This document shows, in pieces, positions 5,377 to 54,782 of a stretch of 64,000 nt of DNA. Position 1 is the first letter of the stretch; every line of letters begins with the position of its first letter. The position numbers were made by a program, and so were the translations under genes. Location of the stretch: positions 13,109,453 through 13,173,452 of the forward strand of contig NC_087084.1 of assembly GCF_026151205.1 (NCBI RefSeq). The letters are read 5' to 3'. The notes beneath the pieces are model-generated. The model had not been told where the DNA came from. It saw only the letters and a list, made by a program, of their open reading frames with translations, and made no database searches. The stretch comes from Bolinopsis microptera. Taxonomy: Eukaryota > Ctenophora > Tentaculata > Lobata > Bolinopsidae.

Positions 5377-6713
5377 CTGCACCGTGCAGCAATGTTGAGC
5401 GAGAAGAAATGTGACGTATGTTAGACTGGAGCGAACAATGTTAACTTGGCTAGCTAGTAACTCAATTGTCTCTTTAAAAACGGATATTTTTCTTAATTTG
5501 TAGATTCTCTACTCATTGTTGAGCTGATATAAATCATCTAAGCATGTGCTAAAAATTAAAACTTTGAAACAGACGGAAAATTTAAACAAATTTCAGCACA
5601 CAAGTTGCTTTTACATAATGAATGTGAGAGACTAGCACAGCTTGGCACTACATCACACGGTTATGTCACAGCTGTGTAGCGATCTGTTGAATGCGATTAC
5701 CAAATTAAACCTACTACCACGTTGTCATGGTTACAACAAAATTCAGTGAGCGCTGTACACGGCGCCCTGACATTGTGTTACCTCCCAACTCACAGCTGTA
5801 GTGTTATAAGTGTTTAATATTAGTGTTTATAGGTGTTTATAGGCACGTTTATTAAGTAGTGCTGTGTCAAATCTGGTGCCTGATTGTATCAAGATATTGT
5901 TTTAACATTGTCTATTCAGTTTGAACCACTGATTATAGAATGTGTGGAGAGTTGTGTAGTTAAAACAATTTCATTGTTACAGATCATTATATAAATTTTA
6001 TATAGCTCACACAACAGTTTCATTTGTTCAATATACACACAATTCAAGCGCTATATTCACAGTTCAATCAATCATCCAACACGATCATATACATATTATA
6101 ATGAAATGAAAAACAGTTCCACCTTGTCAAACCACACAAAGGTGTCCGAGATAGAGAGAGAGAGAGAGAGAGATAGAGAGAGCGAGCAGCTTTCTCTTAC
6201 ACCAATAATAATACAAGAACTGACCATGATTTGAATTTCTCATCATCATTATACCCTTTTCAGTCAAAGACGAGCATACCCAAAGAAAAGCTAAGTCCTT
6301 CGAGCGACAAGGTGCGTTAATTCCACACACTTGAGCACTTAAATGTTTTATAAAGGAGTAACAGCTGTGCTTGATTCTTATCGTTCCCGGTGTTGATTTG
6401 TGGTGGTACAAAGTACAAAGTGACGGTTTATAATTTAGATGCCAAGCGCAGTTAACATGCTGAACTGAATAATATAGTTTACAAATGTAATATCAGTATT
6501 CAGTATACACCATAGTTACTGTCACAATAGTTACTGTCACCATAGTTACTGTAACCATAGTTACTGTCACGCTGAACGGCTTCTCCTTTTCAAGGAGGTG
6601 TCTAAACTAAACTAAACTAAACTATGCTTTTAGACAAGTACTGAGCATTTATTATTATGAAATCATGATTATATAAAGATATAACGGCGTTATTCGCGTG
6701 GTAAACTGGTCAT
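5377..6713. other. Noncoding stretch with short simple repeats
   Basis: A (GA)n tract lies at about 6151-6182. A 15-bp unit CATAGTTACTGTCAC is repeated about four times at 6507-6572, and ACTAA repeats lie at about 6604-6623. An open minus-strand frame at 6127-6411 runs into the (GA)n tract and is not supported as a gene. Confidence 0.6.
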
Positions 6714-9684
6714 TAAAGATGGTCCAATAAACTGGTTTAAGTTGGTCTAAGTAAGCTATTAAACTGGTTTAAGTTGGTCTAAGTAAGCTATTAAACTGGT
6801 TTAAGTTGGTCTAAGTAAGCTATTAAACTGGTTTAAGTTGGTCTCAGTAAGCTATTAAACTGGTTTAAGTTGGTCTCAGTAAGCTATTAAACTGGTTTAA
6901 GTTGGTCTCAGTAAGCTATTAAACTGGTTTAAGTTGGTCTCAGTGAGCTATTAAACTGGTTTAAGTTGGTCTCAGTGAGCTATTAAACTGGTTTAAGTTG
7001 GTCTCAGTAAGCTATTAAACTGGTTTAAGTTGGTCTCAGTAAGCTATTAAACTGGTTTAAGTTGGTCTCAGTAAGCTATTAAACTGGTTTAAGTTGGTCT
7101 CAGTAAGCTATTAAACTGGTTTAAGTTGGTCTCAGTAAGCTATTAAACTGGTTTCAGTTGGTCTCAGTAAGCTATTAAACTGGTTTAAGTTGGTCTCAGT
7201 GAGCTATTAAACTGGTTTAAGTTGGTCTCAGTAAGCTATTAAACTGGTTTAAGTTGGTCTCAGTAAGCTATTAAACTGGTTTAAGTTGGTCTCAGTAAGC
7301 TATTAAACTGGTTTAAGTTGGTCTCAGTAAGCTATTAAACTGGTTTCAGTTGGTCTCAGTAAGCTATTTAACTGGTTTAAGTTGGTCTCAGTAAGCTATT
7401 AAAATGGTTTAAGTTGGTCTCAGTGAGCTATTAAACTGGTTTAAGTTGGTCTCAGTAAGCTATTAAACTGGTTTAAGTTGGTCTCAGTAAGCTATTAAAC
7501 TGGTTTAAGTTGGTCTCAGTAAGCTATTAAACTGGTTTAAGTTGGTCTCAGTAAGCTATTAAACTGGTTTAAGTTGGTCTCAGTAAGCTATTAAAATGGT
7601 TTAAGTTGGTCTAAGTAAACTATTAAACTGGTTTAAGTTGGTCTCAGTAAGCTATTAAACTGGTTTAAGTTGGTCTCAGTAAGCTATTAAACTGGTTTAA
7701 GTTGGTCTCAGTAAGCTATTAAACTGGTTTAAGTTGGTCTCAGTAAGCTATTAAACTGGTTTAAGTTGGTCTCAGTAAGCTATTAAAATGGTTTAAGTTG
7801 GTCTCAGTAAGCTATTAAACTGGTTTAAGTTGGTCTCAGTAAGCTATTTAACTGGTTTAAGTTGGTCTAAGTAAGCTATTAAACTGGTTTAAGTTGGTCT
7901 CAGTAAGCTATTAAAATGGTTTAAGTTGGTCTCAGTAAGCTATTAAACTGGTTTAAGTTGGTCTCAGTAAGCTATTAAACTGGTTTAAGTTGGTCTCAGT
8001 AAGCTATTAAACTGGTTTAAGTTGGTCTCAGTAAGCTATTTAACTGGTTTAAGTTGGTCTCAGTAAGCTATTAAACTGGTTTAAGTTGGTCTCAGTAAGC
8101 TATTAAAATGGTTTAAGTTGGTCTCAGTAAGCTATTAAAATGGTTTAAGTTGGTCTCAGTAAGCTATTAAACTGGTTTAAGTTGGTCTCAGTGAGCTATT
8201 AAACTGGTTTAAGTTGGTCTCAGTAAGCTATTAAACTGGTTTAAGTTGGTCTCAGTAAGCTATTAAACTGGTTTAAGTTGGTCTCAGTAAGCTATTAAAC
8301 TGGTTTAAGTTGGTCTCAGTAAGCTATTAAAATGGTTTAAGTTGGTCTCAGTAAGCTATTAAACTGGTTTAAGTTGGTCTCAGTAAGCTATTAAAATGGT
8401 TTAAGTTGGTCTAAGTAAGCTATTAAACTGGTTTAAGTTGGTCTCAGTAAGCTATTAAACTGGTTTAAGTTGGTCTCAGTAAGCTATTTAACTGGTTTAA
8501 GTTGGTCTCAGTAAGCTATTAAACTGGTTTAAGTTGGTCTAAGTAAACTATTAAACTGGTTTAAGTTGGTCTCAGTAAGCTATTAAAATGGTTTAAGTTG
8601 GTCTCAGTAAGCTATTAAAATGGTTTAAGTTGGTCTCAGTAAGCTATTAAAATGGTTTAAGTTGGTCTCAGTAAGCTATTAAACTGGTTTAAGTTGGTCT
8701 CAGTAAGCTATTAAAATGGTTTAAGTTGGTCTCAGTAAGCTATTAAAATGGTTTAAGTTGGTCTCAGTAAGCTATTAAACTGGTTTAAGTTGGTCTCAGT
8801 AAGCTATTAAAATGGTTTAAGTTGGTCTCAGTAAGCTATTAAAATGGTTTAAGTTGGTCTCAGTAAGCTATTAAAATGGTTTAAGTTGGTCTCAGTAAGC
8901 TATTAAAATGGTTTAAGTTGGTCTCAGTAAGCTATTAAAATGGTTTAAGTTGGTCTCAGTAAGCTATTAAACTGGTTTAAGTTGGTCTCAGTAAGCTATT
9001 AAAATGGTTTAAGTTGGTCTCAGTAAGCTATTAAAATGGTTTAAGTTGGTCTCAGTAAGCTATTAAAATGGTTTAAGTTGGTCTCAGTAAGCTATTAAAA
9101 TGGTTTAAGTTGGTCTCAGTAAGCTATTAAACTGGTTTAAGTTGGTCTCAGTAAGCTATTAAACTGGTTTAAGTTGGTCTCAGTAAGCTATTAAACTGGT
9201 TTAAGTTGGTCTCAGTAAGCTATTAAACTGGTTTAAGTTGGTCTCAGTAAGCTATTAAAATGGTTTAAGTTGGTCTCAGTAAGCTATTAAACTGGTTTAA
9301 GTTGGTCTCAGTAAGCTATTAAACTGGTTTAAGTTGGTCTAAGTAAGCTATTAAACTGGTTTAAGTTGGTCTAAGTAAGCTATTAAACTGGTTTAAGTTG
9401 GTCTCAGTAAGCTATTAAACTGGTTTAAGTTGGTCTCAGTAAGCTATTAAACTGGTTTAAGTTGGTCTCAGTAAGCTATTAAACTGGTTTAAGTTGGTCT
9501 CAGTAAGCTATTAAAATGGTTTAAGTTGGTCTCAGTAAGCTATTAAACTGGTTTAAGTTGGTCTCAGTAAGCTATTAAACTGGTTTAAGTTGGTCTCAGT
9601 AAGCTATTAAACTGGTTTAAGTTGGTCTCAGTAAGCTATTAAACTGGTTTAAGTTGGTCTCAGTAAGCTATTAAACTGGTTTAA
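6714..9684. repeat. 32-bp minisatellite, about 92 copies
   Basis: The unit is 32 bp and contains GGTTTAAGTTGGTCTCAG then TAAGCTATTAAACT. The 480-base recurrence of whole lines equals 15 units, which confirms the period. Variants are clustered rather than random: GTCTAAG in the first copies, CAGTGAGC mostly before about 7430 with one at about 8190, and AAAATGG instead of AAACTGG densest between about 8580 and 9110. That pattern fits local unequal exchange. The unit carries stops and 32 is not divisible by three, so no protein is implied. Confidence 0.97.
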
Positions 9685-10032
9685 GCGTTACTGGTTTCTC
9701 CTTCACCGCGTTACGTGCCGTGTGTTATGTGTTATGTGTTATGTATGAACACTGAACAGTGTAAGTACCGGCTCAAAACATAAGGTTCACTGGGGCGCGT
9801 GTTTCCTTTAAGACTAATGATATTCATAGCATTGCCTTAATATTCATTAGATCAGGAGTCTCTCCAATCTCCATGACAATGACCCTCATAACAGCACCTG
9901 CCCCCTAGTTTAACTTCCTTTTCCGGCTTCCTGTTAGGAATATTATCCTGCCAAGACCAAGTGTAGGAAGTATTCTGAATTTTAATATTCAGTATCTTAA
10001 GTTCAATGTGAGATAAGATTGACTTGTACTTA
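9685..10032. other. Spacer between two minisatellites
   Basis: About 350 bp with a short GTTATGT repeat near 9722-9742. I see no gene or element. Confidence 0.5.
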
Positions 10033-21410: not shown

Positions 21411-22343
21411 TAATGTGGGGGGGGGTCAACCTCATTTTACCTCATGAGGCCAGCCAAAAAAGGCAAAATTGGGATGAGGTAAAATGAGGTAAAATGAGGT
21501 AAATAAATCTAGTTTTCTAAGCCTTTTTTTAGAGACAAAAAAGGTTTATTCGAAGTCATTATACTATAATTCGAGGCTGTGCATGGTCTCCCATGATATG
21601 TAATGGTTTATTAGGGGTGATGTGGTCCCTGGGAAGGGGCATTCCCAGTTTAACCTACTTACTCTCCAAACTTGGGGTAAATAAAACTTCGCATTATAAT
21701 TATTATTTATGAAAAGAAAATTGAACATTTCAATTTCCATGATCCATTAGGATATTGTAAATAGCACTTGCTAAGTTTTGTAAAGGAATTAGCAATAACT
21801 TTAGTGTCACTTGGGCAGTTGCCAATTTATGGGGATATTTCCGCATTGCATGACATGGACCATTTAAATAATATCTTAATTTGATATTGCGATTATCGAG
21901 TCACTCTAAAACAAATTGTGTCTAACTAGACCAAATGTAAACAACAGTTGTGCATGGAAATGGATTGGATATCTACATGAATTTAGTCGAAATTGCATAG
22001 TGAAAGGTCATTTCATAATAAAAATTACTCATATAAACTCATACTTCATACAATTCTAAGTTCTTATGTACATGTTCAATGTTTCGCTGTAGAATAAAGG
22101 GCGGTTCAGAAAACCACCTTTCGTTGAAATAATTAGATATCACCTCTAATTAGTTGCTCTATTATAGGGTCGGGAACAACCAAAAAAATTGTTGTGTCTC
22201 TAAGGTTTCGTATAATACTGACTTGGGCCACGCCCATATTTTTCACCAATTTTTAACAGGTAAAATTCTCTAAATCGTCAATTTAGTCACGAAGGAGTAT
22301 GGGAGGAGTTCTAAATGTGTGCTCCTCTAATATAAACAGTAGG

Positions 22344-22490
22344 AAATGGTTAACTTTAGTCGAGGTTTCAGGTCTCTACAATGTCGGGAAGTTCCTGCAG
22401 GAATTTGCGCATTGCGCTTGAAGCGCAAGATTCACAGCGCCAAAAGCGAAGGTCGTAGAGACATGAGACCTTGACTAAAGTTAACCATTT
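22344..22490. repeat. Nested hairpin inside the left arm
   Basis: AAATGGTTAACTTTAGTC at 22344-22361 pairs with the complementary end at 22473-22490, and the pairing continues through GGTCTCTAC with a few mismatches. The loop contains smaller self-complementary GCGCTTGAAGCGC. The right arm holds the counterpart at 23631-23777. Confidence 0.85.
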
Positions 22491-23630
22491 CATACCATTG
22501 CTATAAGAGTATGCCACTTTCAGAGTCCTGAACACACTCCCATATCTCTTAATCGTCAATTATATGAATTTTACCTGTTAAAATATATCATCTTTAACTG
22601 ATATCAATTTAGTTTAACACTGTTAATTTTTTTAAAAACATAATTCTTCACACCAAACTAACGCACAATATGATAGTATAAAAAAGGAAGGTTTTCCTTG
22701 GATTCCAAATTTAACTTTGATTATATCCTGGCACTGATTATCATTTCTCGATTGTTCTCCATTTTCCAATGCAGTCAGCAAGTTCCAATTAAGGTAGACT
22801 AGGTTTTCGAATCTTTATATTATGTTCAGAAGCAGGCCAGAAGGGGTTGTTACCAGAGGAATATCTTCTTGGAACAAGGGAATTAATGAGGTCTTCATTT
22901 ATAACTCGTCAGTGACAGTCCGGACAGGATGAGCATTGACGAGATCCACTGATTACTTCATAGCTCGTCATTGATAGGATCAGTATTAAATGAGGTCGAA
23001 TGATTACTTCATAGCTCGTCACTAACTGTATCAGCATAACATGACTAACAACTAACGAGGTCCAGTGATCTCTTGCTGATACGTCAAGACAAGATCAGTA
23101 AATAGCTAAAAATATCGAAAAAAATTAGCTTAGAAATTACAGAGTACAAATGCCTTCTTCACAACTAACTCTTCGGCCTCATCTTTTTAAATCACTCATT
23201 CCCTCTGAAACAAGATAATGCTTAGGACTAGGAGGAACTTAGTTAAATTCTTGTATGATTCAGTAAGAGGAAAATTCCTTAGTAAGCTAACATTCTTTTG
23301 TAGGATGTTACCACTTATCATATCTGTTATCCAGCATAATCCCACAACTAGACCCTCTTATTCTTGAGTCTTGACAATGACAGTAGCAATGTACACTATT
23401 TTGATGCTCGGTCCAGGTCTCCAAGAAAACCTTCCTTTTTATATTCTCATATTGTGTGTTAGTTTGGTGTGAAGTATTATTTTCTTTTTTAAAACTAACA
23501 GTGTTAAACTAAAATGATATCAGTAAAAGATGATATATTTTAACAGGTAAAATTCATATAATTGACGATTAAGAGATATGGGAGTGTGTTCAGGACTCTG
23601 AAAGTGGCATACTCTTATAAGAATGGTATG

Positions 23631-23777
23631 AAATGGTTAATTTTAGTCAAGGTCTCATGTCTCTACGACCTTCGCTTTTGGCGCTGTGAATCTTGCGCTT
23701 CAAGCGCAATGCGCAAATTCCTGCAGGAACTTCCCGACATTGTAGAGACCTGAGACCTCGACTAAAGTTAACCATTT
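23631..23777. repeat. Nested hairpin inside the right arm
   Basis: This is the counterpart of 22344-22490, starting AAATGGTTAATTTTAGTC and ending GACTAAAGTTAACCATTT. Small differences from the left copy show that the arms have begun to diverge. Confidence 0.85.
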
Positions 23778-23977
23778 CTTATTGTTTATATTAGAGGAAC
23801 ACACATTTAGAACTCCTTCCATACTCCTTCGTGACTAAATTGACGATTTAGAGAATTTTACCTGTTAAAATTTTTGCCGAGATTTACCTCATTTTACCTC
23901 ATGAGGCCAGCCAAAAAAGGCAAAATTGGGATGAGGTAAAATGAGGTAAAATGAGGTTGACCCCCCCCCCCTAATGT

Positions 23978-27461: not shown

Positions 27462-27576
27462 TTAACGGGTGATATTCGTAAAATATTTCATATTTGTTCC
27501 AATTAGTAGTATAGACCTTGTATCACGTGGTGACCCCCACTGTCGCTTCACTATCGTCTTCGACGATACAGGGGGA

Positions 27577-27597
27577 GCCGCGCACTTCGTGCGCGGC
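27577..27597. repeat. Perfect GC-rich hairpin
   Basis: The arms GCCGCGCAC and GTGCGCGGC flank a 3-base TTC loop. It is preceded by CGATACAG and followed by GGGTC. A sibling with a 6-base loop lies at 34064-34087, beyond the far arm of the palindrome. Confidence 0.9.
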
Positions 27598-28236
27598 GGG
27601 TCATATACAACGGGTCATATACAGCGGGTCATAATACAACGTATGACAAATTAGACCGTCGACAATTCCAACTCGGCGCGCGTCTTGGTAGGTACGTTAT
27701 AAACCATTACATAGCAATGCACTACTAGTACTTTACTACTATCTAGTACTATACTACTATTATATTTATCTATCTACTAATCTGTAATCTATCTCGCGAA
27801 ATTTCTTCGAAGTAGCGCGCGCCGGGTCAGTCCATTGTTAATGGACAACGTAGTGTCTGTTTAGTTGTCAATCAAACATCAAAGCATGCACCACCTACGA
27901 TGAGATAAAGAGTCAGGCTTTTAAAATTATAGCATTAACCTACCACGTACTATGCAAGATGACGCCCAGTTTTATTTTTATCTGAGGACCCCAGGCTAAT
28001 TATTGCTGCAAAGTTCAAGTACAGTAGTAGCGCGTGTTGGGTCAGTCCATTAAGTTAAACAATGTTGTAGGTTTATAATATAACTTACTTGTATCACGTC
28101 GTGACGTGACCCTCATCACTCATTGTCATTTCAATTACTGTAATCGGGGCGAATAAGTCGCGATAAGTAGTATAGTGTCATGGTTTGGAGCCCCGTTTGA
28201 GCGCTATCCGAGACACAGTTTACTAAAATGTCATTT

Positions 28237-28291
28237 TAGCACAGTTGACTAATCTGCCACAACTTTAGCCGGAGGTTTCAAGTTCGAATCC
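28237..28291 (+). repeat. tRNA-like (SINE-type) segment in the left arm
   Basis: TAGCACAGTTGA resembles a pol III A box and AGTTCGAATCC a B box, with starts 44 bp apart. The flanks cannot form the T-arm or acceptor stems of a functional tRNA. This looks like the head of a tRNA-derived SINE or a decayed tRNA. The inverted copy is at 33930-33984, and a diverged relative appears at 36.4-36.5 kb. Confidence 0.4.
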
Positions 28292-29547
28292 CAGTCGGAG
28301 TCGTTCTCCAATGTGATTATATTATTATGGTACACATTTTAACCTAGTTTAACCCATATTCAAGCAATCTAACCCATATTCAAGCAAATCTAACCCTACA
28401 CAGAGTATCAACTAAATACATTCATCACACAGCAGAAGTCGTTAAATGTATAGTGTACACGTTCACGTACAATTACATCAGTTGTCTATCGACATTATTA
28501 ACATCTGGTTCAAGGCGACCTCTGCAGTATAATGTACGGATAAAGGGATATAGTGACTTATGTGCTAGCTAAATTTAACTAGAGTGTACAGTTTAGGACA
28601 ACACCTGGTTGATATGGTAACGTAATGAGAAAGCACTTTTCAGGAAGGTTACTCAATAGTACCAAGATTGTACCGTCATTGTAAAGTAAAGTTACGGCAA
28701 CAGCTGTGTTTGTACTTGACAGATATTTGCTTAATTTAAGACCCAAACAAAACTAAAGTGAATTGATAAAAATGTGACTTTCTTAAAAGAAATACGTGTC
28801 AACAAAATGTAGATTTTGTAGAAGCTGATAAATATATATAGTGTACTCGAGCACGTATTACACTGACTGTTTGATACTTTGATATGCAATGTAATTTATA
28901 GAGAGGACTTACAGGACGGTTACTTTACAGCCTCGAGAATAATTTGTCATTGTATAATAGCCATAGACCTAGTACAGAATAATCACGGTAGCAGCTGTGC
29001 AATGTATTTGACTCAAATCTCTTGTCAGGACTGGTCTAGATATTTTATATTTCTACAATTATATCAGAAGATCTCAACAAATTGAACAGTGTGCGAGGAA
29101 TTTTTAAATATAATAACCAATGAAAGATAGTGCTAATTCCTACCTCAATTAGTGGACCGTCCCTTTACATTAGAACTCAGTGTTTGTCTTTGTTAAATAT
29201 CTTGATAAGGTATAATTACGAACAGGTGCGTGTTTTACTGGACAGTCTCTATCTTCTTCATATCTTGAGGTATTAGCTTTAGGTAAGTGACAACTGGATC
29301 AAAGTTGTTTTGTTTAGTTTTATGCTCAAGGTTCGCACTATTCTGCTTTGTTATATTTGAGCTGTCGTATATCAACATAGTATTTTAGTACAATATTAGA
29401 ATATTGTAGAAATCATACCCGTAAATATTTGCTCGGTATCTGGCAGCAGTTCATCGATTAATGTTCCGTGTTCTGTTTCCTGGTATTTTGTGATCAGAAT
29501 ATTTTCTTGAGTAGGATAAGATGAAATCCGTCACCTTATCTTACACA

Positions 29548-30066
29548 ATACTGAATACTGAATGAAATCTGAATGAATACTGAATACTGAATGTATACTG
29601 AATGAATACTGAATGAAAACTGAATACTGAATACTGAATGAATACTGAATACTGAATGAATACTGAATGAATACTGAATGAATACTGAATGAATACTGAA
29701 TGAATACTGAATGAATACTGAATGAATACTGAATGAATACTGAATGAATACTGAATTAATACTGAATGAATACTGAATGAATACTGAATGAATACTGAAT
29801 GAATACTGAATGAATACTGAATACTGAATGAATACTGAATGAATACTGAATGAATGCTGAATGAATACTGAATGAATACTGAATACTGAATGAATACTGA
29901 ATGAATACTGAATATTGAATGAATACTGAATGAATACTGAATGAATACTGAATGAATACTGAATGAATACTGAATGAATACTGAATGAATACTGAATGAA
30001 TACTGAATGAATACTGAATGAATACTGAATACTGAATGAATACTAATAATAATATACTGAATACTG
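29548..30066. repeat. 11-bp minisatellite (left arm)
   Basis: The unit is AATGAATACTG, mixed with shortened 7-bp AATACTG units that break the period irregularly. It is mirrored as CATTCAGTATT in the right arm. Confidence 0.95.
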
Positions 30067-30219
30067 AATTATAATTATGATGTATTATTTTCTAAAGTTA
30101 TAATGTAGACAAGGAAACACACGTTTAGATTTTTGAAGATAACTTTAACTAAACTATATTCAATAACTCTATATATCCAAATACTTATCTCAATAATTAT
30201 CAACGTTTGGTTATAAAGT

Positions 30220-30915
30220 TCAAGAATCTTCCTGACGATACATTTGTGAAAGTTTAAGAAGCTTGATGATAATATTTTTGTTCTCGTTCATTAGTTTGTT
30301 GACATCAGATAGACTTGTAGTCGTGATAACTGCAGTCAAAAGAGCTTGTTCTTCCATACTTAAAATTGTGGCGATGTCTTGTCCACAGTCAATGAGATGC
30401 TGCTCAAATTTCTCAAACATTTCCGTTTTCATTATGTAAGAGAATAAAAAGTCCATACATTTGTTCTCCTCCTTGCACAATTTACTTTGTAACAGGACAT
30501 CTAGAGATTTGAGTAATTTCGACATATCATTTACCTTTTTATTTATTTGCTCGATTGCTACGCCTTTCCGCTTGCCTTTGTGTTGCCGAACTGAGTCAGA
30601 TTCTAACTCATCACTACTTGATACACTTCTACTATCACTATATGGTGTTTTTGACTCGTAATCAGCACTTGTTTCCTCAGAGTTAGAACCGTCTTGTTGA
30701 GATTCTTCAGATATTATCGTATCAGCATCTGAATATGTGGAAGCAGGATAATCCAGTTTTACATCAGTCGCATCCGAGTTAGCTTTTGATAGTGGTTGAA
30801 TGTTAGAGCTTGTTTCTGACTCTCCGTTCTCTCGATGATACCGACTTTTGTGTGAGGACAAGCTATATTTATTGACAAAAGACTTGTCACAGAATGAATA
30901 AGAAATAGGACTCAT
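30220..30915 (-). CDS. C2H2-finger-like protein encoded in the palindrome loop
   Basis: From the ATG at 30915-30913 this encodes 231 residues ending RQEDS before TGA. Residues 6-27 (YSFCDKSFVNKYSLSSHKSR then YH) have the spacing of a C2H2 zinc finger: Cys9, Phe13, Leu19, His22, His27. The first Cys is Tyr6, so zinc binding is doubtful. A Ser/Glu/Asp-rich linker follows (about 30-107), then a basic patch KGKRKG (about 113-118), then a helical-looking Leu/Lys-rich C-terminal domain (about 120-231) with a coiled-coil-like start (IEQINKKVNDMSKLLKSLDV). The frame continues upstream of the ATG without a stop for about 20 codons. It is the only long ORF in the loop of the 5.9-kb palindrome, consistent with cargo or a domesticated regulator. 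The family is not recognised. Confidence 0.55.
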   Translation of the reverse strand: MSPISYSFCDKSFVNKYSLSSHKSRYHRENGESETSSNIQPLSKANSDATDVKLDYPASTYSDADTIISEESQQDGSNSEETSADYESKTPYSDSRSVSSSDELESDSVRQHKGKRKGVAIEQINKKVNDMSKLLKSLDVLLQSKLCKEENKCMDFLFSYIMKTEMFEKFEQHLIDCGQDIATILSMEEQALLTAVITTTSLSDVNKLMNENKNIIIKLLKLSQMYRQEDS

Positions 30916-31080
30916 GATATTACAAAGGATACGTATAGAACGTTTGCAACAACAATCTTCAAATATATTATTCAATCTAACGGGAATGCTTCAAATTTTG
31001 TGGAGTAATTAACTCAGACCCACGTGCTATTTTATACAAATAAAAAACAACTAATCTGCTTTCCCTGATCGACGTGTCTT

Positions 31081-31304
31081 TTTCTTAACCAACGGTTAGG
31101 TCCCATTGTATTTGTATGTACAAGTGTTAAGGACTTCGGGCTCCCTCCTTTCCTACCCTCCCTCCCCTGGAGGGAGGGTGGTAGGGTAGGGGTTTTTCTT
31201 AACCAACGGTTAGGTCCCATTGTATTTGTATGTACGGGTGTTAAGGACTTCGGGCTCCCTCCTTTCCTACCCTCCCTCCCCTGGAGGGAGGGTGGTAGGG
31301 TAGG
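31081..31304. repeat. Duplicated 114-bp unit with hairpin and G-quadruplex potential
   Basis: Two copies are offset by 114 bp (31081 and 31195). Each ends with a C-rich block, CCTACCCTCCCTCC, then CCTGG, then GGAGGGAGGGTGG and TAGGGTAGG. The C and G blocks are inverted repeats. The G block has four runs of three or more Gs with short loops, so it can form either a stem or a quadruplex. Confidence 0.85.
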
Positions 31305-31362
31305 AAACGTGTGTTTCCTTGTCTACATTATAACTTTAGAAAATAATACATCATAATTATAA

Positions 31363-31787
31363 TTCAGTATTCAGTATATTATTCAGTATTCATTCAGTAT
31401 TCAGTATTCATTCAGTATTCATTCAGTATTCATTCAGTATTCATTCAGTATTCATTCAGTATTCATTCAGTATTCATTCAGTATTCATTCAGTATTCATT
31501 CAGTATTCATTCAGTATTCATTCAGTATTCATTCAGTATTCATTCAGTATTCATTCAGTATTCATTCAGTATTCATTCAGTATTCAGTATTCATTCAGTA
31601 TTCATTCAGTATTCAGTATTCATTCAGTATTCATTCAGTATTCATTCAGTATTCAGTATTCATTTAGTATTCATTCAGTATTCATTCAGTATTCATTCAG
31701 TATTCATTCAGTATTCATTCAGTATTAATTCAGTATTCATTCAGTATTCATTCAGTATTCATTCAGTATTCATTCAGTATTCATTCA
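31363..31787. repeat. 11-bp minisatellite (right arm, first part)
   Basis: CATTCAGTATT units form the mirror of the left-arm array. They stop at the LINE fragment and resume at about 32499-32659. Confidence 0.95.
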
Positions 31788-31789
31788 GT

Positions 31790-32401
31790 GATGAAGAGTG
31801 GCGCTCTAACAAAACTTTAGGATCGTTGATGTGCACTGTTAAGGATATCAAGAATCGAATATTCCTTGGTAATGTTGCCTTTAGTAAATTTCAGAAAGTT
31901 TGGATGAAGAGCAAGATTTCAGTCCAAAGGAAGATCAAAATCTACGAGGCACAAGTAGTCTCTATTCTACTCTACAACTGCAACTCCTGGGCTGCACCAC
32001 TAGCTTCGTTGAATGAACTTGATATTGCTCATCGCAAACACCTCCGAAGAATCCTCAACATCAGATGGCCTACTGGGGTTATTTCTAATGAGGCACTCTA
32101 TGCTCGTTGTTATGTCACTCCCTTGTCTGTGAGAGTCTCTAAGTTTCGATGGAGAATGTTAGGACATATCTTAAGAGGACAGGAAGACTCACCAGCATAC
32201 ACCTCTATGTTATTTGCTATAAATTCTGATATTTTTATGGAAGGGAGACGGGGTAGACCATGTTTAAACTTATTAGATGTTATTAGAAAAGACTTGACTA
32301 GTAGAAATCTTGATATTAGATTTAAGAATTTGACTGATTTCGAAGACCTTAGATTTTTAGCTTTAGATAGGGAGGAGTGGAAGAAGTTAGAAGATGGTTG
32401 A
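31790..32401 (+). pseudogene. 5'-truncated LINE ORF2 C-terminal fragment
   Basis: A 203-codon open frame begins abruptly at the minisatellite junction (SDEEWRSNKTLGSLM) and ends at TGA 32399-32401. It contains the usual post-RT features of non-LTR retrotransposons: KIYEAQVVSILLYNCNSWA, LDIAHRKHLRRILNIRWP, SVRVSKFRWRMLGHILRG and EGRRGRPCLNLLDVIRKDL. The catalytic reverse transcriptase motifs (including the YADD-type motif) and the endonuclease lie upstream and are absent, so it is a dead 5'-truncated copy. The frame is still intact, which suggests recent arrival. The 3' flank to about 32498 is a T-rich tail. Confidence 0.85.
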
Positions 32402-32498
32402 TGTTTTTGTTTTCTTTTTTATGCGTTTTGATATCTATAAGGTGCCTAGGATGCTCTTTTAAAGAGATATTTCGTACTTTGAAAGATTTACTACTACT

Positions 32499-32659
32499 AT
32501 TCATTCAGTATTCATTCAGTATTCATTCAGTATTCATTCAGTATTCATTCAGTATTCAGTATTCATTCAGTATTCAGTATTCAGTTTTCATTCAGTATTC
32601 ATTCAGTATACATTCAGTATTCAGTATTCATTCAGATTTCATTCAGTATTCAGTATTGT
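32499..32659. repeat. 11-bp minisatellite (right arm, second part)
   Basis: The CATTCAGTATT array continues after the LINE fragment with a few mutated units (CAGTTTTC, CAGTATAC, CAGATTTC). It then joins the unique arm sequence starting GTGTAAGATAAGGTGACGG. Confidence 0.95.
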
Positions 32660-34063
32660 GTAAGATAAGGTGACGGATTTCATCTTATCCTACTCAAGAA
32701 AATATTCTGATCACAAAATACCAGGAAACAGAACACGGAACATTAATCGATGAACTGCTGCCAGATACCGAGCAAATATTTACGGGTATGATTTCTACAA
32801 TATTCTAATATTGTACTAAAATACTACGTTGATATACGACAGCTCAAATATAACAAAGCAGAATAGTGCGAACCTTGAGCATAAAACTAAACCAAACAAC
32901 TTTGATCCAGTTGTCACTTACCTAAAGCTAATACCTCAAGATATGAAGAAGATAGAGACTGTCCAGTAAAACACGCACCTGTTCGTAATTATACCTTATC
33001 AAGATATTTAACAAAGACAAACACTGAGTTCTAATGTAAAGGGACGGTCCACTAATTGAGGTAGGAATTAGCACTATCTTTCATTGGTTATTATATTTAA
33101 AAATTCCTCGCACACTGTTCAATTTGTTGAGATCTTCTGATATAATTGTAGAAATATAAAATATCTAGACCAGTCCTGACAAGAGATTTGAGTCAAATAC
33201 ATTGCACAGCTGCTACCGTGATTATTCTGTACTAGGTCTATGGCTATTATACAATGACAAATTATTCTCGAGGCTGTAAAGTAACCGTCCTGTAAGTCCT
33301 CTCTATAAATTACATTTCATATCAAAGTATCAAACAGTCAGTGTAATACGTGCTCGAGTACACTATATATATTTATCAGCTTCTACAAAATCTACATTTT
33401 GTTGACACGTATTTCTTTTAAGAAAGTCACATTTTTATCAATTCACTTTAGTTTTGTTTGGGTCTTAAATTAAGCAAATATATGTCAAGTACAAACACAG
33501 CTGTTGCCGTAACTTTACTTTACAATGACGGTACAATCTTGGTACTATTGAGTAACCTTCCTGAAAAGTGCTTTCTCATTACGTTACCATATCAACCAGG
33601 TGTTGTCCTAAACTGTTGTCCTAAACTGTACACTCTAGTTAAATTTAGCTAGCACATAAGTCACTATATCCCTTTATCCGTACATTATACTGCAGAGGTC
33701 GCCTACCTTGAACCAGATGTTAATAATGTCGATAGACAACTGATGTAATTGTACGTGAACGTGTACACTATGCATTTAACGACTTCTGCTGTGTGATGAA
33801 TGTATTTAGTTGATACTCTGTGTAGGGTTAGATTTGCTTGAATATGGGTTAGATTGCTTGAATATGGGTTAAACTAGGTTAAAATGTGTACCATAATAAT
33901 ATAATCACATTGGAGAACGACTCCGACTGGGATTCGAACTTGAAACCTCCGGCTAAAGTTGTGGCAGATTAGTCAACTGTGCTAAAATGACATTTTAGTA
34001 AACTGTGTCTCGGATAGCGCTCAAACGGGGCTCCAAACCATGACACTATACTACTACGATACA

Positions 34064-48388: not shown

Positions 48389-51300
48389 TATCACTATAGT
48401 GCCGCTATATCTCCAACTATCACTACAGTGCCGCTATATCTCCAACTATCACTACAGTGCCGCTATATCTCCAACTATCACTACAGTGCCGCTATATCTC
48501 CAACTATCACTACAGTGCCGCTATATCTCCAACTATCACTACAGTGCCGCTATATCTCCAACTATCACTACAGTGCCGCTATATCTCCAACTATCACTAC
48601 AGTGCCGCTATATCTCCAACTATCACTACAGTGCCGCTATATCTCCAACTATCACTACAGTGCCGCTATATCTCCAACTATCACTACAGTGCCGCTATAT
48701 CTCCAACTATCACTATAGTGCCGCTATATCTCCAACTATCACTACAGTGCCGCTATATCTCCAACTATCACTACAGTGCCGCTATATCTCCAACTATCAC
48801 TACAGTGCCGCTATATCTCCAACTATTACTACAGTGCCGCTATATCTCCAACTATCACTACAGTGCCGCTATATCTCCAACTATCACTACAGTGCCGCTA
48901 TATCTCCAACTATCACTACAGTGCCGCTATATCTCCAACTATCACTACAGTGTCGCTATATCTCCAACTATCACTACAGTGCCGCTATATCTCCAACTAT
49001 CACTACAGTGCCGCTATATCTCCAACTATCACTACAGTGCCGCTATATCTCCAACTATCACTACAGTGCCGCTATATCTCCAACTATCACTACAGTGTCG
49101 CTATATCTCCAACTATCACTACAGTGCCGCTATATCTCCAACTATAACTACAGTGCCGCTATATCTCCAACTATCACTACAGTGCTGCTATATCTCCAAC
49201 TATCACTACAGTGCCGCTATATCTCCAACTATCACTACAATACCGCTATATCTCCAACTATCACTACAGTGTCGCTATATCTCCAACTATCACTACAGTG
49301 CCGCTATATCTCCAACTATCACTACAATACCGCTATATCTCCAACTATCACTACAGTGCCGCTATATCTCCAACTATCACTATAGTGCCGCTATATCTCC
49401 AACTATCACTACAGTGCCGCTATATCTCCAACTATCACTACAGTGCCGCTATATCTCCAACTATCACTACAGTGCCGCTATATCTCCAACTATCACTACA
49501 GTGCCGCTATATCTCCAACTATCACTACAATGCCGCTATATCTCCAACTATCACTACAGTGCCGCTATATCTCCAACTATCACTACAGTGCCGCTATATC
49601 TCCAACTATCACTACAGTGCCGCTATATCTCCAACTATCACTACAGTGCCGCTATATCTCCAACTATCACTACAGTGCCGCTATATCTCCAACTATCACT
49701 ACAGTGTCGCTATATCTCCAACTATCACTACAGTGCCGCTATATCTCCAACTATCACTACAGTGTCGCTATATCTCCAACTATCACTACAGTGCCGCTAT
49801 ATCTCCAACTATCACTATAGTGCCGCTATATCTCCAACTATCACTACAGTGTCGCTATATCTCCAACTATCACTACAGTGCCGCTATATCTCCAACTATC
49901 ACTACAGTGTCGCTATATCTCCAACTATCACTACAGTGCCGCTATATCTCCAACTATCACTACAGTGCCCCTATATCTCCAACTATCACTACAGTGCCGC
50001 TATATCTCCAACTATCACTACAGTGCCGCTATATCTCCAACTATCACTACAGTGCCGCTATATCTCCAACTATCACTACAGTGCCGCTATATCTCCAACT
50101 ATCACTACAGTGCCGCTATATCTCCAACTATCACTACAGTGCCGCTATATCTCCAACTATCACTACAGTGCCGCTATATCTCCAACTATCACTACAGTGC
50201 TGCTATATCTCCAACTATCATTACAGTGTCGCTATATCTCCAACTATCACTACAGTGTCGCTATATCTCCAACTATCACTACAGTGTCGCTATATCTCCA
50301 ACTATCACTACAGTGCCGCTATATCTCCAACTATCACTACAGTGCCGCTATATCTCCAACTATCACTACAGTGCCGCTATATCTCCAACTATCACTACAG
50401 TGCCGCTATATCTCCAACTATCACTACAGTGCCGCTATATCTCCAACTATCACTACAGTGCCGCTATATCTCCAACTATCACTACAGTGCCGCTATATCT
50501 CCAACTATCACTACAGTGCCGCTATATCTCCAACTATCACTACAGTGCCGCTATATCTCCAACTATCACTACAGTGCCGCTATATCTCCAACTATCACTA
50601 CAGTGCCGCTATATCTCCAACTATCACTACAGTGCCGCTATATCTCCAACTATCACTACAGTGCCGCTATATCTCCAACAATCACTACAGTGCCCTATAT
50701 CTCCAACTATCACTACAGTGCCGCTATATCTCCAACTATCACTACAGTGCCGCTATATCTCCAACTATCACTACAGTGCCGCTATATCTCCAACTATCAC
50801 TACAGTGCCGCTATATCTCCAACTATCACTACAGTGCCGCTATATCTCCAACTATCACTACAGTGTCGCTATATCTCCAACTATCACTACAGTGCCGCTA
50901 TATCTCCAACTATCACTACAGTGCCGCTATATCTCCAACTATCACTACAGTGTCGCTATATCTCCAACTATCACTACAGTGCCGCTATATCTCCAACTAT
51001 CACTACAGTGCCGCTATATCTCCAACTATCACTACAGTGCCGCTATATCTCCAACTATCACTACAGTGCCGCTATATCTCCAACTATCACTACAGTGCCG
51101 CTATATCTCCAACTATCACTACAGTGCCGCTATATCTCCAACTATCACTACAGTGTCGCTATATCTCCAACTATCACTACAGTGCCGCTATATCTCCAAC
51201 TATCACTACAGTGCCGCTATATCTCCAACTATCACTACAGTGCCGCTATATCTCCAACTATCACTACAGTGCCGCTATATCTCCAACTATCACTACAGTG

Positions 51301-54300
51301 CCGCTATATCTCCAACTATCACTACAGTGCCGCTATATCTCCAACTATCACTACAGTGCCGCTATATCTCCAACTATCACTACAGTGCCGCTATATCTCC
51401 AACTATCACTACAGTGCCGCTATATCTCCAACTATCACTACAGTGCCGCTATATCTCCAACTATCACTACAGTGCCGCTATATCTCCAACTATCACTACA
51501 GTGCCGCTATATCTCCAACTATCACTACAGTGCCGCTATATCTCCAACTATCACTACAGTGCCGCTATATCTCCAACTATCACTACAGTGCCGCTATATC
51601 TCCAACTATCACTACAGTGCCGCTATATCTCCAACTATCACTACAGTGCCGCTATATCTCCAACTATCACTACAGTGCCGCTATATCTCCAACTATCACT
51701 ACAGTGCCGCTATATCTCCAACTATCACTACAGTGCCGCTATATCTCCAACTATCACTACAGTGTCGCTATATCTCCAACTATCACTACAGTGCCGCTAT
51801 ATCTCCAACTATCACTACAGTGCCGCTATATCTCCAACTATCACTACAGTGCCGCTATATCTCCAACTATCACTACAGTGCCGCTATATCTCCAACTATC
51901 ACTACAGTGCCGCTATATCTCCAACTATCACTACAGTGCCGCTATATCTCCAACTATCACTACAGTGCCGCTATATCTCCAACTATCACTACAGTGTCCG
52001 CTATATCTCCAACTATCACTACAGTGCCGCTATATCTCCAACTATCACTACAGTGTCGCTATATCTCCAACTATCACTACAGTGCCGCTATATCTCCAAC
52101 TATCACTACAGTGCCGCTATATCTCCAACTATCACTACAGTGCCGCTATATCTCCAACTATCACTACAGTGCCGCTATATCTCCAACTATCACTACAGTG
52201 CCGCTATATCTCCAACTATCACTACAGTGCCGCTATATCTCCAACTATCACTACAGTGCCGCTATATCTCCAACTATCACTACAGTGCCGCTATATCTCC
52301 AACTATCACTACAGTGCCGCTATATCTCCAACTATCACTACAGTGCCGCTATATCTCCAACTATCACTACAGTGCCGCTATATCTCCAACTATCACTACA
52401 GTGCCGCTATATCTCCAACTATCACTACAGTGCCGCTATATCTCCAACTATCACTACAGTGCCGCTATATCTCCAACTATCACTACAGTGCCGCTATATC
52501 TCCAACTATCACTACAGTGCCGCTATATCTCCAACTATCACTACAGTGCCGCTATATCTCCAACTATCACTACAGTGCCGCTATATCTCCAACTATCACT
52601 ACAGTGCCGCTATATCTCCAACTATCACTACAGTGCCGCTATATCTCCAACTATCACTACAGTGCCGCTATATCTCCAACTATCACTACAGTGCCGCTAT
52701 ATCTCCAACTATCACTACAGTGTCGCTATATCTCCAACTATCACTACAGTGCCGCTATATCTCCAACTATCACTACAGTGCCGCTATATCTCCAACTATC
52801 ACTACAGTGTCGCTATATCTCCAACTATCACTACAGTGCCGCTATATCTCCAACTATCACTACAGTGCCGCTATATCTCCAACTATCACTACAGTGCCCC
52901 TATATCTCCAACTATCACTACAGTGCCGCTATATCTCCAACTATCACTACAGTGCCGCTATATCTCCAACTATCACTACAGTGCCGCTATATCTCCAACT
53001 ATCACTACAGTGCCGCTATATCTCCAACTATCACTACAGTGTCGCTATATCTCCAACTATCACTACAGTGCCGCTATATCTCCAACTATCACTACAGTGC
53101 CGCTATATCTCCAACTATCACTACAGTGCCGCTATATCTCCAACTATCACTACAGTGCCGCTATATCTCCAACTATCACTACAGTGCCGCTATATCTCCA
53201 ACTATCACTACAGTGCCGCTATATCTCCAACTATCACTACAGTGCCGCTATATCTCCAACTATCACTACAGTGCCGCTATATCTCCAACTATCACTACAG
53301 TGCCGCTATATCTCCAACTATCACTACAGTGCCGCTATATCTCCAACTATCACTACAGTGCCGCTATATCTCCAACTATCACTACAGTGCCGCTATATCT
53401 CCAACTATCACTACAGTGCCGCTATATCTCCAACTATCACTACAGTGCCGCTATATCTCCAACTATCACTACAGTGTCGCTATATCTCCAACTATCACTA
53501 CAGTGTCGCTATATCTCCAACTATCACTACAGTGCTGCTATATCTCCAACTATCACTACAGTGCTGCTATATCTCCAACTATCACTACAGTGCCGCTATA
53601 TCTCCAACTATCACTACAGTGTCGCTATATCTCCAACTATCACTACAGTGCCGCTATATCTCCAACTATCACTACAGTACCGCTATATCTCCAACTATCA
53701 CTACAGTGCCGCTATATCTCCAACTATCACTACAGTGCCGCTATATCTCCAACTATCACTACAGTGCCGCTATATCTCCAACTATCACTACAGTGCCGCT
53801 ATATCTCCAACTATCACTACAGTGCCGCTATATCTCCAACTATCACTACAGTGCCGCTATATCTCCAACTATCACTACAGTGCCGCTATATCTCCAACTA
53901 TCACTACAGTGCCGCTATATCTCCAACTATCACTACAGTGCCGCTATATCTCCAACTATCACTACAGTGCCGCTATATCTCCAACTATCACTACAGTGCC
54001 GCTATATCTCCAACTATCACTACAGTGCCGCTATATCTCCAACTATCACTACAGTGCCGCTATATCTCCAACTATCACTACAGTGCCGCTATATCTCCAA
54101 CTATCACTACAGTGCCGCTATATCTCCAACTATCACTACAGTGCCGCTATATCTCCAACTATCACTACAGTGCCGCTATATCTCCAACTATCACTACAGT
54201 GCCGCTATATCTCCAACTATCACTACAGTGTCGCTATATCTCCAACTATCACTACAGTGCCGCTATATCTCCAACTATCACTACAGTGCCGCTATATCTC

Positions 54301-54782
54301 CAACTATCACTACAGTGTCGCTATATCTCCAACTATCACTACAGTGTCGCTATATCTCCAACTATCACTACAGTGCCGCTATATCTCCAACTATCACTAC
54401 AATGCCGCTATATCTCCAACTATCACTACAGTGCCGCTATATCTCCAACTATCACTACAGTGTCGCTATATCTCCAACTATCACTACAGTGCCGCTATAT
54501 CTCCAACTATCACTACAGTGCCGCTATATCTCCAACTATCACTACAGTGTCGCTATATCTCCAACTATCACTACAGTGCCGCTATATCTCCAACTATCAC
54601 TACAGTGCCGCTATATCTCCAACTATCACTACAGTGCCGCTATATCTCCAACTATCACTACAGTGCCGCTATATCTCCAACTATCACTACAGTGCCGCTA
54701 TATCTCCAACTATCACTACAGTGCCGCTATATCTCCAACTATCACTACAGTGCCGCTATATCTCCAACTATCACTACAGTGC
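48389..54782. repeat. 29-bp minisatellite, about 220 copies, 6.4 kb
   Basis: The unit is 29 bp: GCCGCTATATCTCCAACTAT then CACTACAGT. The commonest variant is GTGTCGC for GTGCCGC, scattered through the array, with rarer GTGCTGC, CAATACC and CCCCTAT. No unit has a stop in any plus-strand phase, so one plus-strand frame of about 2130 codons results. The minus strand has stops in every unit. A 2-bp deletion at about 50692 and a 1-bp insertion at about 51994 do not close it, because all three phases are open. Confidence 0.98.

Follow-up and report, generated by a model that had tools for sequence, protein, structure and literature searches.

In a stretch of 64,000 nucleotides from the genome of the ctenophore Bolinopsis microptera (NC_087084.1, positions 13,109,453 to 13,173,452; hereafter the window), a 5.9-kb palindrome lies at 28166-34055. 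Its identity as a Maverick/Polinton is well supported by sequence, through its ends, its target site and its larger relatives. We think it probable that the element is a non-autonomous, palindromic Maverick/Polinton, formed when protein-primed replication duplicated one end in inverted orientation and then inserted by an integrase supplied in trans. How the palindromes were born, and that an integrase placed them, we infer. An earlier note on this DNA had considered an undescribed class of foldback element; instead, the ends and the target-site duplication place the element with the Mavericks/Polintons.

Ends, insertion site and arms of the palindrome

Self-comparison of the 64-kb window confirmed the near-perfect inverted arms and the middle of ~1.18 kb with one open reading frame (ORF) that the note had described. 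Two inverted blocks, 28588-29706/32498-33616 and 28166-28515/33706-34055, are 100% identical as rounded by the program, and a third, 29684-30041/31432-31789, matches at 92% within a tandem array. With the array excluded, the outer arms (1386 and 1403 bp) are ~99.6% identical and differ by 5 substitutions and 2 indels (4 and 13 bp). Pairing ends inward at ~30126 on the left and ~31308 on the right. From the outside in, each arm consists of the terminus AGTAGTATAG, a subterminal region and an array of 11-bp tandem repeats. The same architecture recurs at other loci of the genome, far beyond what a chance origin would give.

We searched the Bolinopsis microptera genome (264,652,675 bases) for related elements and surveyed the 15 that were legible at both ends; L010, L017, L021 and L029/L030 were omitted, one or both of their ends being absent from the retrieved sequence or unrecognised. 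All 15 elements start with AGTAG and 14 of them with AGTAGT. A perfect 6-bp target-site duplication flanks 14 of the 15. The window element has the termini AGTAGT//ACTACT, with AGTAGTATAG on both sides, and is adjoined by GCGATA and ACGATA, which agree at 5 of 6 bases. A study of vertebrate Mavericks reports (AGT)2//(ACT)2 ends with perfect duplications of 6 bp, and the end motif of Mavericks/Polintons is given as (AG)3 or (AGT)2 // (ACT)2 (PMC8097293). Both features are thus found here: the motif at the two ends of the window element, and the 6-bp duplication in the form just described.

The insertion site is also preserved in its empty form. When the flanks of the window element were joined without it and used as a query, 31 of the 40 matches listed (69-84% identity) crossed the junction at query positions 81-86 with no insert; two of the remainder were the window itself and seven did not reach across. 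The element therefore interrupts one copy of a dispersed repeat, and uninterrupted relatives of that repeat represent the uninserted state. A short repeat just outside the palindrome, at 27505-27758, has a AGTAGTATAG-like motif at each end and by eye appears related to this host repeat; the bases flanking it do not pair up as a 6-bp duplication.

One arm carries a later arrival. A 712-bp insert encodes a LINE-like (long interspersed nuclear element) C-terminal fragment, for which Pfam gave only a sub-threshold match to DUF6451, and 26 further copies at 99-100% identity are among the matches listed in the genome search. Since the insert is confined to one arm, it arrived after the palindrome had formed. 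A subterminal stretch at 28235-28469 (query 70-304) is common to many members of the family and looks tRNA-like by eye, with A and B boxes; in the window ARAGORN found no tRNA and Rfam no known RNA at gathering thresholds.

To compare arms within and between elements, we used the terminal 1 kb of both arms in ten elements. Left and right arms of one element are 98.6-100% identical in all ten, the best match of a left arm outside its own element ranges from 77.5 to 99.4%, and the element's own right arm is the best match for nine of the ten left arms. The two arms pair in a tree in eight of ten cases, with L011 (mixed with L009) and L014 as exceptions. The near identity noted earlier for the window's arms holds in this comparison as well, as they resemble one another more than they do the arms of other elements. 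Such identity within elements would follow from recent insertion or from a resetting of the arms during copying; resetting seems the better account, because identity between elements spans a wide range.

The C2H2-like gene and the palindrome centres

The 251-codon ORF of the window element encodes a C2H2-like finger in which tyrosine stands for one zinc ligand. This tyrosine replaces the first cysteine of the finger in the window copy and in L010, and the other ten rows of the alignment have cysteine; the window copy's own product may therefore be impaired. The C-terminal region is predicted, with low confidence, to be helical. Between the window and the L028 subfamily, where blastn aligns only the coding part, the synonymous divergence (dS) is 0.55, the nonsynonymous divergence (dN) 0.21 and dN/dS 0.38, and dN/dS is 0.46 between the window copy and that of a 21-kb relative. 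As judged from these ratios, the coding sequence is under purifying selection. A profile search of the PDB with the protein gave 29 matches, to C2H2 finger proteins and, weakly (E ~0.1-1), to Mdm4. There was no relative among the 96 matches of a pattern search in IMG/VR, and an AlphaFold2 model (mean pLDDT 45.6) was too poor to be used.

The 129 matches listed for the window protein in the genome fall into 69 loci. At 39 of these, gene copies lie on both strands within 12 kb, and 33 of the 39 begin with an outward-reading copy. Some of the 39 are fragments (L013 has remnants only), and the palindromic form was read in the loci that were retrieved. The other 30 loci have matches on one strand, which are split matches only, with no second direct copy; the window locus is placed among them because its second copy is gone.

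The complete members show where that copy had been. In L009, L010, L015 and L016 the junction of the two arms lies at a single G/C-rich short inverted repeat or right next to it, and each arm carries the ORF or the greater part of it; in L009, a 6.1-kb palindrome, the two ORFs are both open. The right-arm partner missing from the middle of the window element exists, whole or largely, in these same four loci. In the window, L014, L017, L018 and L020, sequence has been lost unevenly at or beside the G/C-rich centre, each with its own breakpoint. By this comparison, the window ORF is an arm gene whose mirror copy was removed by an off-centre deletion. The idea that the ORF is cargo carried in a loop was consequently rejected: complete relatives have the gene in both arms. 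The genome-wide search also found arms and ORF together at other loci, so that the converse pattern, with the arms confined to the window and the loop elsewhere without them, did not occur. The asymmetric central spacer runs in opposite directions in different elements, which we had also considered as a sign of hairpin resolution; this was dropped because random orientation of insertion explains the differences.

Larger relatives and their genes

Three larger elements with AGTAG ends and 6-bp duplications carry the gene together with a polymerase. The smallest, L034 (8.6 kb), has identical terminal inverted repeats (TIRs) of 164 bp and the duplication GTAGAC. In a genome-wide search its 1253-codon frame matched PF03175, the protein-primed DNA polymerase pPolB, above the cut-off; Pfam returned no PF03175 match for the two halves of this frame, because the split probably cut the domain. 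Its partner gene was read as having one exon for a C2H2 finger and a second for a C-terminal part that matches the window protein at 28% identity. L031/L032 (13.7 kb) has 535-bp TIRs at 99.6%, frames of 761 and 194 codons and a C2H2-like ORF (76%). L025-L027 (21.2 kb) shares its first 28 bases with L009, is flanked by a perfect duplication, and contains related frames and a C2H2-like ORF (about 72-76%). Pfam did not name a polymerase in the latter two. Their frames are colinear with the L034 polymerase in three segments: residues 21-686 (hhalign E 2.8e-10, probability 96.8; BLASTP 6e-10), 845-949 (hhalign E 8.5e-6, probability 83.3) and 1108-1226 (hhalign E 4.3e-7, probability 92.7). The assignment of a putative polymerase to the 13.7- and 21.2-kb elements is supported by this alignment. 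The parent elements most likely use the C2H2-like protein as an accessory in replication or end binding, given that homologues accompany pPolB in all three elements and that purifying selection acts on its coding sequence.

The polymerase gene itself also occurs in a palindrome. At C9:6594451-6608817, a 14,367-bp palindrome carries pPolB in each of its ~7-kb arms, pieces of which are 99.5-100% identical, and is flanked by a perfect CTTGTT duplication. Outward pairs of pPolB, seen as matches only, lie at C7:6691702/6702995, C9:663553/671611 and, weakly, C13:13625492/13630153, which makes four outward pairs among five inverted ones. Sequence from the subterminal region of the window family (query 394-860, 92.5%) makes up the centre of the 14.4-kb pPolB palindrome (L033 5320-5948). 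An Endonuclease_7 match in the L010 polymerase ORF exceeds the cut-off (27.4 against 23.6 bits), and those in L034 (21.8 bits) and L033 (20.8 bits) are below it; the C..C, DHDH and C..CN residues are present in the polymerase frames of both L034 and L033. T4 endonuclease VII cuts branched DNA.

Further pPolB sequence was seen next to palindromes. In L010 (6941-9900) and L022 (3-5590), pPolB, above the Pfam cut-off in L022, and more ORFs follow directly after a palindrome; the palindrome has a left Maverick-type end only, and a run of N occupies L022 5815-5914. A different foldback of ~6.6 kb, rich in GCGCTGGCTA-type repeats, is nested in the 21-kb pPolB element (L026 2685-9335).

The window element lacks a pPolB gene among its ORFs and is therefore non-autonomous, and it has no ORF for a capsid, ATPase or adenain-type protease. 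No RVE integrase was found among its ORFs or among those of L034 sent to Pfam, and L034 has no further frame of at least 100 codons. Of the 150 scored rve matches listed for the genome, many belong to frames longer than 1000 codons, as retrotransposons have. The interval C1:335997-352706 brings together, within 16.7 kb, a protease, a weak match to pPolB and an rve match in a frame of 407 codons; from this gene content the cluster is perhaps a fuller Maverick. On C6 a pPolB C-terminus, recognised by eye, and a C2H2 gene are neighbours of a protease that exceeds the Pfam cut-off; this stretch yielded no left end. In L037, an adenovirus-type protease ORF at 5502-5954 (22.1 against a cut-off of 21.3 bits) stands beside a pPolB C-terminus. 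By eye, the ORF adjoining this protease looks like the C-terminal part of a major capsid protein of Mavericks; Pfam found nothing in it.

Origin of the palindromes

The following steps could produce such elements. During protein-primed replication of an element, the single strand that is displaced would fold back at the short G/C-rich inverted repeat of the centres, and extension of the folded-back strand by copying would give an inverted duplication with an origin at both ends. This palindromic molecule would be copied by pPolB in trans, which would keep its arms alike, and would then be inserted by an integrase, also in trans. Mostly outward pairs, as seen for the partner gene (33 of 39) and for inverted pPolB copies (four of five), are expected if the same end is duplicated.

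Such a history has counterparts among linear viruses with terminal origins, whose snapback or palindromic defective genomes likewise have one end inversely duplicated, carry the origin at both ends and are copied in trans. Adenovirus offers a case of a defective genome with an inverted end-duplication. For adeno-associated virus (AAV) a snapback genome is reported (PMC8235507). The window family differs in being integrated, spread through the germline, and in having kept its reading frames.

Several observations weigh against this account. The six inward gene pairs among the 39 are not expected from simple duplication of one end, nor are the inward pPolB pair at C8:6278714/6286327, which has stops, and the pPolB matches at C6:15345187/15349766, which lie on one strand; together these contradict the expectation that genes always read outward from one duplicated end. 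In the 21-kb element the C2H2 ORF sits between pPolB exons on the opposite strand. The inward pairs, the same-strand pair and this gene order do not simply fit one-end duplication. The window's own target-site duplication matches at five of six bases only, and the L019 arms are 99.0% identical to each other and 99.4% identical to an L016 arm. No integrase was found among the ORFs sent to Pfam from the elements read, and none of the 150 rve matches listed falls in these elements. Among the frames sent to Pfam, a subset, from elements with both ends read, there was no match to a capsid, ATPase or protease. The C6 stretch is not shown to be a complete Maverick, as its protease is not attributable to one element with pPolB. 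The C2H2-type protein adjoining pPolB in L022 resembles the window family in the finger only; with no convincing similarity outside it, homology of this protein is not supported.

A more far-reaching proposal, possible but on present evidence unlikely, is that ctenophores harbour a branch of integrase-less protein-primed transposons that exist as giant palindromes. In these, pPolB, fused to an Endonuclease VII-like nuclease, and the zinc-finger partner would reside on separate palindromes and complement each other in trans, and folded-back replication would keep the arms identical.

We are more sceptical that the palindrome is the native functional form, replicating as an inverted dimer, with the predicted Endonuclease VII-like domain of pPolB resolving hairpin or cruciform intermediates and with pPolB and its C2H2-like partner on separate palindromes. 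Palindromes do occur in several subfamilies (L009, L028 and C9:6594451-6608817), 39 of the 69 gene loci are inverted, no partner gene was seen in the C9 pPolB palindrome, nor pPolB in the partner palindromes read, and the three Endonuclease_7 matches (L010, L034 and L033) would suit such a cycle. However, L034 and L031/L032 have ordinary TIRs and both genes and are not palindromic, so a palindrome is not required, and the central deletions suggest that palindromes decay. The Endonuclease VII-like domain, whose activity is predicted, may moreover be general in animal pPolBs.

More doubtful still is an ordinary foldback DNA transposon (FB, TU, Galileo or Mutator type) that a cut-and-paste transposase mobilises and whose link to pPolB is accidental. 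The window family shares with foldback elements (FB, TU, Galileo, Tetris, Tm1) the very long inverted repeats, the internal, subterminal arrays of short tandem repeats and a variable middle, and the pPolB elements read yielded no integrase. P- and Mutator-type elements make target-site duplications of 7-10 bp, whereas those found here are of 6 bp (14 of 15) beside AGTAGT//ACTACT termini, as in Mavericks. The pPolB genes of the 21-kb element with L009's terminal sequence, and of others sharing the end motif, also argue against an accidental link, and no P- or Mutator-type transposase was found among the ORFs sent to Pfam.

An assembly artefact, through an inverted mis-join or collapsed haplotypes, is scarcely credible: arms this similar are prone to misassembly and one member lies on a small contig (C21, 81,740 bases), but the 6-bp duplications at the element ends, the arm-specific differences, the one-sided insert and the insert-free relatives of the site speak for a mobile foldback rather than a misassembly, as the note had allowed.

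The most probable reading remains a palindromic Maverick/Polinton, whose features in the window are collected in Table 1. The window also contains a second, smaller inverted repeat (22251-22702 / 23420-23870, arms ~450 bp, 95%) and two satellites, one of ~92 copies of a 32-bp unit (6728-9685) and one of ~220 copies of a 29-bp unit with a GC skew near -0.5 (48389-54782).

Table 1 Features of the palindromic element and its insertion site, in window coordinates
Feature	Position	Strand	Remark
Left target-site duplication GCGATA	28160..28165		5/6 bases equal to right copy
Left arm	28166..30126	+	Terminus AGTAGTATAG, subterminal region, 11-bp array, unique inner end
Left-arm 11-bp tandem array (TGAATACTGAA)	29552..30069		
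Unpaired middle ('loop')	30127..31307		Left-arm sequence without right-arm partner here
ORF, 251 codons	30220..30975	-	C2H2-like finger, acidic linker, C-terminal region
114-bp direct duplication	31079..31304		With G/C-rich short inverted repeat marking palindrome centre
Right arm	31308..34055	-	Nested LINE-like tail included
712-bp LINE-like tail within right-arm array	31788..32499	+	ORF 31826-32401; LINE assignment by eye
Right target-site duplication ACGATA	34056..34061		

Compared with published Mavericks/Polintons, the window element has the same (AGT)2//(ACT)2 ends, the same 6-bp duplication and pPolB in its larger relatives. It differs in its size of 5.9 kb, in lacking ORFs for pPolB, integrase, ATPase, protease and capsid, and in inverted repeats that make up most of its length. 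Intact vertebrate Mavericks are 12.7-24.6 kb long, with eight ORFs (seven in one species) and TIRs of 46-1447 bp (PMC8097293); against those sizes, L034 is a smaller Maverick-type element, with two genes in 8.6 kb. Among the records listed by searches of an open-access library on non-autonomous, palindromic, foldback and defective Mavericks/Polintons, and on Mavericks/Polintons in ctenophores, no title or opening of an abstract described palindromic elements of this kind; the records listed for ctenophores did not name the group.

Mobile palindromes of 6-14 kb thus survive in an animal genome, and their off-centre deletions show a route by which they decay. A protein-primed, strand-displacing replicon that folds back is expected to leave inverted end-duplications in which reading frames are kept, so these palindromes may be genomic traces of Maverick replication, a step otherwise inferred from gene content.

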